This document shows positions 15,402 to 17,528 of a stretch of 64,000 nucleotides of DNA, one piece after another (position 1 is the stretch's first letter; each line of letters opens with the position of its first letter). Both the position numbers and the translations under genes were made by a program. Source of the DNA: Gemmatimonadota bacterium (GTDB lineage Bacteria; Gemmatimonadota; Gemmatimonadetes; Longimicrobiales; Gaopeijiaceae); NCBI GenBank assembly GCA_022827345.1, contig JAJDTB010000027.1, positions 248,001 through 312,000 on the forward strand. Direction: 5' to 3'. A model generated the notes under the pieces. It had not been told where the DNA came from. It made no database searches and worked only from the letters and a program-made list of their open reading frames with translations.

Positions 15402-16675
15402 TGCGGGGCACGGTTGGGAAGGCGAGATCTGCTGAACGCTCGACGCCCCTTTGGGTAGCCACCGCCCTGACCGGTTTGGCGAGCCTCGCGGGCTGTGATG
15501 GTGGGGATACGGGCAGCGGGCCGGGCTCCCCGATCGACTTGAGCGAATCGGCCATCGAGGTGCTGGGCGGCTCGGACTCCCTCGCCGTGGTGCGGGATCT
15601 GGAGTTGGCGAGCGATGGGTCCGTCTGGGTGCTGAACTCGGCCGAGCCGTTTTTCGTTGGATTCGGCCCGGACGGGGAGTCGCTCGGCGTCCACGGACGA
15701 TCCGGCAGGGGGCCCCGCGACTTCCCGATGCCCGCGGGCTTCGTCACGGGCGGATGGCAGGGTGAGGTATGGGCCCTTGACCTTGTGCGCCACGCGATGA
15801 TCCGCGTCTCGCGGCCTGACGCGGACTGGGCGGAGATTCCGCTGCGGTCGGCCTCCCTTCCTCCCGGCACCGTGCGGGGCGGCATGAGCATGCTGGGCTC
15901 TTCGGTGCGATCGGCGAGGCTTGGCGGGGAGTTCATCGTGGGGCGCACGAGCGAAACGATGGAGGCCGGTGTCCTCAACTACCGTTTTTCGCTCTTGCAC
16001 CCGGACCTGATCGCGGTTGATCCGGAAGCGGGCGGAGCACGAACCGTCCTGGCTTTCAGCGAGGTGCTGGACGACCCGTCCGGAGACTTCATCGCCAGCG
16101 ACGGCGGGTTCCCGATGTGGTACCGGTTGTGGGCTTCATGCGGGGACAGCGTCGTCCGGATCCATGATCGGGTGAGGAATCAGCTCCGGGGGTTCGACGG
16201 AACGGGGGCCGAGGTGCGGCCCATCGACCTGCCGCCCGTTCCCTTCACGGAGGTCACACCCCGGCAGTTCGCCAAAGCGGTCTTCCCGATCCGGCAGGCC
16301 GAGTTGACGGGAGATGTCTGGAGCAGGCTCAGCCCGGAGGACAGCCTTCGAGTCCTCAATCAGGCGGCGCGCTCCGTTCAAGGGGAGCCCCGCGAACTCG
16401 CAAGCTACCTGCCGCGCTATGTGGACTTCCGCTGCAGCGAAAGCGGGACGATGTGGATGAACCCCATCGATCTCGACGCGGGTGGACTGAAGGGAGCTTT
16501 GACGTGGCTGCGGATCACGCCCGACGGAGCCATCCGGGAAGTGCACCTGCCCGAGCGGTTCGATGCGTTTCGCTTCTCGGACTCCCGGATCTGGGGCGTG
16601 TACAGGGACGAATTCGATATCCCGGCCGTTGCGTCGATCGGGCTGCCGGTTGTGGCTGGGATGCCTGATTCCTAG
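15401..16675 (+). CDS. Lipoprotein with six-bladed beta-propeller (NHL-like)
   Basis: The 424-residue protein starts with a lipoprotein signal, lipobox LAGC with Cys32, then propeller-like repeats: VVRDLELASDGSVWVLN, FFVGFGPDGESLG, GGWQGEVWALD, and a C-terminal blade LTWLRITPDGAIREVHLP. It should sit on the outer or inner membrane facing the periplasm. The start is ATG at 15401, overlapping the ypdA stop (TAATG). Proteins of this class are abundant in this lineage and their ligand is unknown. Two similar lipoproteins occur at 17578 and 39573. Confidence 0.78.
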   Translation: MRGTVGKARSAERSTPLWVATALTGLASLAGCDGGDTGSGPGSPIDLSESAIEVLGGSDSLAVVRDLELASDGSVWVLNSAEPFFVGFGPDGESLGVHGRSGRGPRDFPMPAGFVTGGWQGEVWALDLVRHAMIRVSRPDADWAEIPLRSASLPPGTVRGGMSMLGSSVRSARLGGEFIVGRTSETMEAGVLNYRFSLLHPDLIAVDPEAGGARTVLAFSEVLDDPSGDFIASDGGFPMWYRLWASCGDSVVRIHDRVRNQLRGFDGTGAEVRPIDLPPVPFTEVTPRQFAKAVFPIRQAELTGDVWSRLSPEDSLRVLNQAARSVQGEPRELASYLPRYVDFRCSESGTMWMNPIDLDAGGLKGALTWLRITPDGAIREVHLPERFDAFRFSDSRIWGVYRDEFDIPAVASIGLPVVAGMPDS

Positions 16676-16711
16676 CTTTCCTCCGCGTGTTACACCTCAA
16701 GGGAGAACGTG

Positions 16712-16810
16712 ATGCTTACGTTTGTGGTGGTTCGCCATGTCCGCGCATCGGACACCCCGGCGTGCCGACCTTTCACAGCACTTCCTGCGGAGCAGGGCGC
16801 TTGCCTCTAG
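16712..16810 (+). CDS. Candidate erm leader peptide (attenuator)
   Basis: ATG at 16712 has a well-placed GGGAG (16701-16705) six nt upstream and encodes 32 residues beginning MLTFVVVRHVRASD, ending at TAG 16808-16810. It overlaps the first 74 bases of the erm gene in another frame. The N terminus resembles known macrolide-stalling leader peptides: MLVF of ErmBL and the hydrophobic IFVI/IAVV core of other leaders. The better ribosome site belongs to this frame, not to erm. Translation is inferred from the SD and context only; codon signal cannot be judged at this length. Confidence 0.4.
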   Translation: MLTFVVVRHVRASDTPACRPFTALPAEQGACL

Positions 16811-17528
16811 CCTGATCACTCAGGCCCCCGTCACGCGAAGAGACCTGGTCGTCGAGATCGGGTCGGGGCGCGGCATTCTGACTGGCGAGCTGGCCCGTAG
16901 TTGCCGCGAGGTAGTTGGGGTGGAGTTCGACGGAGCACTGTGCCAGGCGCTTCGCAGACGGTTTCGTGGCAACGCGCGGATCACGATCGTCCAGGCCGAC
17001 TTTCTGCGTTTTCGGTTGCCGGATGCGCCGTACAAGGTCATGGGGAACATCCCGTTCAACCGGACTGCAGCGATCATGCGGCGGCTGGTCCAGGCCCCCC
17101 TGCCGCCGGAGGACGCCTGGCTTTTGGTCCAGCGTGAAGCGGCGGAGCGGTTTGCGGGAGGGCCCTACTGCCGGGAAAGCCTGTCCTCCCTGCTGCTCAA
17201 ACCGTGGTGGCAGGTCGAGATCGCGCGGCGTCTGCGACGCACCGACTTCGACCCCCCTCCGAATGTCGAGGCTGTCGCGCTCTGGCTCGCCCGCCGAACG
17301 AGGCCGCTCGTCGACCGATCGCAGGCCGCGGACTATCGGCGTTTCATCAGGACCTGCTTTGGCCGGGGCGGTCACACGATCAGCCGGTGCCTGCGGTCGG
17401 AGTCCACGCGCACGCAAGTCCACCGGTTGGGTCGCGACCTGAGGTTCGACCCGTCCGGGCCACCCTCCGGGCTGACCTTCGATCAGTGGCTGGGGTTGTT
17501 CAGGTTTTGGGTGCTGGCGGGGTCGTAG
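16737..17528 (+). CDS. erm: Erm-family 23S rRNA adenine N6-methyltransferase
   Basis: ATG at 16737 gives 263 residues. The start DLSQHFLRSRALASSLI matches the Erm/KsgA family N terminus. VVEIGSGRGILTGELAR (SAM-binding motif I), VVGVEFD (motif II) and MGNIPFNRTAAIMRRL (motif IV) follow. NIPFN rather than NLPYN points to Erm, which methylates A2058 of 23S rRNA and gives macrolide-lincosamide-streptogramin B resistance, rather than to KsgA. The C terminus has the helical substrate domain. It lies 61 bp after a lipoprotein gene and behind a candidate leader peptide. Its own upstream region has only a weak GGTGG, consistent with controlled initiation. Confidence 0.85.
   Translation: MSAHRTPRRADLSQHFLRSRALASSLITQAPVTRRDLVVEIGSGRGILTGELARSCREVVGVEFDGALCQALRRRFRGNARITIVQADFLRFRLPDAPYKVMGNIPFNRTAAIMRRLVQAPLPPEDAWLLVQREAAERFAGGPYCRESLSSLLLKPWWQVEIARRLRRTDFDPPPNVEAVALWLARRTRPLVDRSQAADYRRFIRTCFGRGGHTISRCLRSESTRTQVHRLGRDLRFDPSGPPSGLTFDQWLGLFRFWVLAGS

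Follow-up and report, generated by a model that had tools for sequence, protein, structure and literature searches.

Translational attenuation, in which a stalled leader ribosome opens a hairpin and another ribosome starts erm, is the standard mechanism of genes of the ermC and ermD type (PMC8298421). Arrest at codons 6–8 is established for the ErmDL leader, and in +X+ arrest the residue X occupies the P site and Arg the A site; the Arg-Leu-Arg (RLR) sequence of ErmDL is dispensable with erythromycin and required with telithromycin (PMC8298421). Macrolides also promote the drop-off of short peptidyl-tRNAs, and drop-off followed by reinitiation has been reported both in vitro and in cells (PMC8934632). 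A search of the literature, covering titles and abstract openings, yielded no description of overlapping or nested erm leaders.

The window, i.e., the whole stretch of 64,000 nucleotides that was analysed, carries a gene that scored 228.2 bits with the Erm equivalog model, above the cut-off of 212. A KsgA identity was rejected on the basis of this score and of a distinct KsgA-like gene found elsewhere in the same genome. An earlier note on this DNA had described a short frame, preceded by GGGAG, that starts 25 nt before the erm ATG and overlaps erm out of frame, and the coordinates (Table 1) bear this out: the distance between the leader ATG and the Erm ATG is exactly 25 nt, and GGGAG is spaced 6 nt from the leader ATG. 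The 3′ end of the 16S rRNA of the same genome was identified as ...GGATCACCTCCT. The TTG at 16722 was rejected as the conserved Erm start, since most relatives do not have it and a stop at −12 is present in many of them. A promoter-like element of the type TTGC/TTGT-N16..18-TAGCGT is located at about −100 from erm in relatives and, in the window, at −87. The pattern fitted 21 of 26 sequences and is descriptive only, as it was derived from the same sequences. A generic sigma-70 promoter scan returned no promoters, the Rfam search gave no matches, and the tRNA scan found no tRNA.

Table 1. Positions of the predicted features at the erm locus of the window.
Feature	Position	Strand	Remarks
Promoter-like element TTGTGG-N17-TAGCTT (tentative)	16650..16678	+	Overlaps the 3′ end of the upstream ORF
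Leader Shine-Dalgarno (SD) GGGAG	16701..16705	+	AGGAG/GGAG kept in relatives
Leader ORF, MLTFVVVRHVRASDTPACRPFTALPAEQGACL, 32 codons (ATG at 16712, stop at 16808–16810)	16712..16810	+	Out-of-frame overlap with erm; conservation, synonymous bias
Leader codons 8–11 (R-H-V-R)	16733..16744	+	Site of the R-X-R of distant relatives; no strict +X+ in the window
erm, 23S rRNA (A2058) methyltransferase family, 263 aa (predicted)	16737..17528	+	NF000499, PF00398
Erm start codon (ATG in the window, GTG in other relatives)	16737..16739	+	Within leader codons 9–10
Small hairpin TGTCC/GGACA, Erm start in the 5′ arm	16738..16754	+	Weak, lineage-specific

Comparison of the leader in related genomes, which the earlier note had proposed as a check, showed that it is conserved. 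In 27 of 36 Erm loci from named genomes, a leader following the pattern MxxFVxVR starts with an ATG located exactly at −25; the other nine comprise the leader-less L049, six distant loci, a copy broken by inserts (L074) and a distant locus without leader (L076). The leader was also found in 26 of 27 further oriented loci, many of them copies already counted, the lone exception (L141) being the L049 gene. The stop of the leader was not conserved in 2 of the 27 leader-bearing loci from named genomes (L051, L071). The short frame is an SD-led leader (uORF) upstream of erm that relatives share at the peptide level. At E ≤ 1e-40, the erm gene was detected in 23 of 121 genomes of the family of the window; at E ≤ 1e-33, a sample of 374 genomes of the class gave 32, a second family included, although one of these 32 is a 33% match of the KsgA type by score. 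In the second family, the gene starts were checked for seven genes; the leader is present in six, and the remaining one is again the L049 gene. The leader–erm unit thus recurs in two families of the class, at variance with the earlier description of such control as unusual for this lineage. When the neighbours of 25 loci were compared, close homologues of the genes flanking the window gene on both sides were seen in the closest relative (L042) only, with weaker or partial matches at L052, L054 and L059, which argues that leader and erm travel as a unit.

The leader of the relatives reads MSTFVxVRRVQ. The beginning MLTF is restricted to the window, its closest relative (L042/L003) and their copies, while MSTF, MPTF, MSAF or MSKF is found elsewhere. 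The likeness to ErmBL (MLVF) and to the IFVI/IAVV core of other stalling leaders, on which the earlier note had drawn, rests on sequence private to the window, and kinship of the leader with ErmBL was rejected. The motif at the Erm start is H-V-R in the window and R-V-Q, R-V-H or R-V-P in the clade, none of which is a strict R-X-R; Arg-X-Arg is present in the distant leaders described below.

Some of the erm copies in this group are altered. L049/L141, within the clade of the window, is a second erm copy in a MAG of 'Candidatus Palauibacter denitrificans', in which about 36 nt with the leader SD and ATG are missing while erm, its start and the promoter-like element are still there; it is possibly a natural leader-less, constitutive allele. 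Two genomes (G016, contig C79; G011, contigs C110 and C97) carry, besides an intact erm in each, second copies (L116–L119) that are broken at identical codons (KPWWQ). In G016 the two halves share a contig, with about 25 kb between them, whereas in G011 they are on two contigs; both halves have a core of 12–14 nt in common (GCCGTGGTGGCA / GCCATGGTGGCAGA). A tyrosine recombinase (PF00589, E 2e-19) adjoins the left half in G011, and a similar ORF was recognized by eye in G016. These observations suggest that erm serves as the attachment site of an integrative element. In L115 (G001:C1:13800-18700), erm is in three pieces, separated by two transposase-bearing inserts (PF13358; PF01609/PF13751).

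Selection on the leader frame was evaluated on a tree built from the Erm sequence outside the overlap, with 25 sequences (24 of the 27 leader-bearing loci of the clade plus the window), omitting L049 and the copies L069, L070 and L071. The number of inferred changes was 27 between −25 and −1 (1.1 per site) as against 146 over the 35 sites upstream, the latter count being ungapped and hence overstated. Read in the leader frame, 13 of the 27 changes were synonymous (31% expected); the two alternative frames gave 4 of 21 (7 involving stops) and 1 of 20. Outside codon 6, which varies only among Met, Leu, Val and Thr, 12 of 18 changes fell on third positions of the leader frame. The third positions of Erm showed 1.2 changes per site inside the overlap compared to 2.42 elsewhere, i.e., their rate was halved. 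The heptamer CGTGTCC, spanning leader codons 9–10 and the Erm start, was invariant except in the window and L042, where it reads CATGTCC. This pattern of substitutions favours the leader frame and points to constraint on the leader N-terminus at the amino-acid level.

A distant set of 27 Erm-like loci was assembled from the named-genome loci and from searches of genomes around the distant hits. L103–L106 were not counted as distant Erms because of their KsgA-like scores; L103 and L104 group with a KsgA on the tree, and L105 and L106 were judged by score alone. A leader with Arg-X-Arg was present in 12 of the 27 (L064, L066, L067, L072, L073, L075, L088, L107, L108, L109, L110 and L111), and in all 12 the Erm start is a GTG embedded in the Arg-X-Arg codons, formed from CGT and the first base of X. 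The nested leader starts 16, 19 or 25 nt before this GTG, placing Arg-X-Arg at codons 6–8 (L107, L108, L111), 7–9 or 9–11, and erm is always read in +1 relative to the leader. X always starts with G, since the GTG start demands it. The first Arg codon of the motif is CGT in 12 of 12 loci; CGT makes up only 10.5% of the Arg codons in these Erm ORFs, and this is far from chance even when relatedness is allowed for. The remaining 15 distant loci (L076, L089–L102) had no nested leader, and the erm start is preceded by an SD of its own in L089, L090 and L091. On the Erm tree, drawn with 41 of the 111 rows, two changes sufficed for the nested state, and the loci that have it are spread over at least seven deep branches. 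As a background, an SD-led open frame beginning with ATG, GTG or TTG 13–28 nt before the start was found at 32 of 2608 gene starts, and such a leader with a nested R/K-X-R/K at one of 2608, which is the erm of L067 itself; the arrangement thus exceeds what chance would give.

The nested loci belong, by the titles of their MAGs, to Chloroflexota-type and gammaproteobacterial genomes. These names are record titles, of which at least one is wrong: RHO2_bin_50, titled Gammaproteobacteria, corresponds by contig and coordinates to G067/G151, placed in the family of the window. When the genomes around two gammaproteobacterial hits were searched, only the starting genomes matched (1 of 341 and 1 of 371). 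None of the known plasmid Erms compared, namely Erm(42), one from Acinetobacter and Erm(X), has the nested leader. The Dehalococcoidia MAG of L067 and L082 (G147) holds a third, weak RrnaAD-type match beside its erm and KsgA-like gene.

The poorer ribosome site that the earlier note had ascribed to erm is less certain. Among 25 Gemmatimonadota sequences, the leader SD was stronger than that of erm in 22, but this was so in only 4 of the 11 distant sequences, and in the window the anti-SD duplex, by a simple measure, amounted to −7.1 kcal/mol for the leader and −7.2 kcal/mol for erm, the latter through a GTGGTGG stretch. L072 and L073 have no clear leader SD. A fair SD-like stretch also precedes several of the distant nested erm starts, which makes plain independent initiation of erm possible. 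In L109 and L075, the stretch GGTGATC lies inside the leader codons and ends one base before the Erm start; we take it to be a match to the 3′ part of the extended SD complement.

From the conserved leader, we infer a drug response and a hand-off: the short frame could well be a translated uORF whose leader peptide detects macrolide-type drugs on behalf of the overlapping erm gene, with the ribosome then passed on to erm, a reading to which we give an even chance. With drug, the leader ribosome would arrest in the +X+ manner (X in the P site, Arg in the A site), covering the Erm start. As the two starts are 16–25 nt apart, a distance at which the general size of the ribosome footprint leaves no room for a leader ribosome beside one initiating erm, no second ribosome could start erm, and any drug-dependent activation would have to come from a hand-over by the same ribosome. 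Most likely, the short peptidyl-tRNA would drop off and the ribosome would re-initiate at the Erm start two bases back; less likely, the arrested ribosome would enter the frame of Erm by a +1 shift. If no drug is present, ribosomes on the leader would pass the Erm start and continue out of frame to the stop at 16810, with erm remaining low, and the mutual exclusion of the two ribosomes would explain how. The strict retention of the start codon, along with the change from GTG to ATG in the window at the cost of Arg, favours re-initiation over frameshifting. The fuller form of the proposal is put forward tentatively, at less than even likelihood: the nucleotides of the resistance start codon would themselves be the arrest site, and the same ribosome would make Erm by drop-off and re-initiation (or by a +1 shift), with no refolding of the RNA, in Gemmatimonadota as well as in the genomes labelled Chloroflexota and Gammaproteobacteria. 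Judged by its codons, the window gene is a derived member, in which Arg was replaced by His as the start became ATG, and its erm may be less tightly drug-dependent. Since arrest by erythromycin does not always depend on +X+, the window leader may respond with a broader use of motifs, or weakly.

The earlier note had taken the locus for a macrolide-responsive attenuator. The conserved leader, the selection on its frame and the +X+ motif in the 12 distant loci support the first part, i.e., that the leader probably senses the drug; the second part, a hairpin that hides the erm start until a stalled leader ribosome frees it for another ribosome, is not supported. A classical attenuator has its arrest site upstream and leaves the erm start free, whereas here the start lies inside the leader. 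With leader start, arrest codons and erm start all within 25 nt, a leader ribosome at any position would, by this geometry, overlap the footprint needed at the erm start, and freeing of that start is geometrically implausible. Folding of 16680–16860, where alternative hairpins had been suggested, gave a z-score of −0.42 against shuffled sequences, i.e., no unusual structure, and across 32 loci z was mostly between −2 and 1. Members of the Gemmatimonadota clade do have a small hairpin over the Erm start (GTGTCC/GGACAC; TGTCC/GGACA in the window), with counterparts at L066, L073, L107 and L108, but this start hairpin is absent or weak in L064, L067, L075, L109 and L110, its significance is marginal and its covariation term is near zero. 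It was hence rejected as a general part of the system and may help to keep erm off in those lineages that have it. Classical attenuation, even as the standard mechanism of such genes, is therefore quite unlikely here. Alternatively, leader arrest could protect the mRNA from Rho or RNases, with erm initiating ordinarily at the embedded start once the leader ribosome leaves. Published work reports that erm expression tracks mRNA stability (PMC5118997), and the SD-like stretches at several embedded starts, that of the window included, would suit such initiation. But an arrested ribosome would still block the translation of erm, and protection leaves unexplained why the erm start stays inside the arrest codons; we regard this explanation as unlikely.

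Drug-induced +1 frameshifting, in which the leader ribosome slips by one base and Erm gains a leader-encoded N-terminal extension, would account for the constant +1 relation of the frames in the nested loci and has a precedent in the ketolide-induced frameshifting on the ermC leader (PMC5009743). A frameshift product would not need a start codon, yet one is kept throughout: all 12 distant loci have GTG, and the window has ATG. The nested loci also share no common slippery site (CGT-GTC, CGT-GGC, CGT-GTT, CGT-GGA and CGT-GCC all occur), and an Arg-tRNA on CGT appears, by eye, unable to re-pair on GTG, so that frameshifting as the principal route is rather improbable. Least probable of all is that the overlapping leader ORF acts independently of the drug and does no more than couple or dampen the translation of erm, with R-X-R incidental to GC-rich codons around GTG. 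The Gemmatimonadota clade has no strict +X+, and R or K occupies the third motif position at 20% of the background starts, as this explanation would have it; against it stand both Arg residues in 12 of 12 distant leaders counted and the amino-acid-level constraint on the leader N-terminus.

If the hand-off is true, the drug-induced loss of nascent peptides, normally a part of macrolide damage, would be the activating signal itself, and a whole erm attenuator would fit in about 40 nt without RNA switching. The nested architecture would then mark a large environmental group of Erms as responsive to the drug, which would make them likely to be true resistance genes. A search designed to find a separate leader upstream of the resistance gene would overlook leaders of this type. 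The arrangement suggests a new variant of erm leader control and a possible way of switching on resistance.

Similar to ErmDL, a +X+ leader with RLR at codons 6–8, the distant relatives have a short SD-led leader with Arg-X-Arg within the first 6–11 codons, while the window and its nearest kin lack a strict R-X-R. Arrest on ErmDL is described as refolding the mRNA in favour of ermD (PMC8298421), whereas in the nested loci the arrest codons themselves contain the Erm start. Erm(X) of plasmid pNG2 (L114) likewise has a +X+ leader (MLISGTAFLRLRTNR) upstream of an Erm of GC-rich bacteria; unlike the nested leaders, it does not overlap erm, its start being at −147 and its end some 100 nt upstream of the gene. 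The ermB gene has a second leader ORF, ermBL2, which also overlaps in a shifted frame and affects erm induction but overlaps ermBL and not the erm start (PMC8274638). In drop-off-reinitiation, likewise, a ribosome that has lost a short peptidyl-tRNA resumes on the same mRNA; it was shown for Pro stretches, with a restart from the A-site aminoacyl-tRNA and with no start codon, drug sensing or regulation involved (Tajima et al., 2022), so the step proposed here, a restart at a start codon, differs from it. Ketolide frameshifting on ermCL is another case in which drug-altered reading of a leader moves the ribosome towards erm; there, the shifted ribosome unfolds a spacer (PMC5009743), whereas here a +1 shift would enter erm directly, at a start codon that is conserved.
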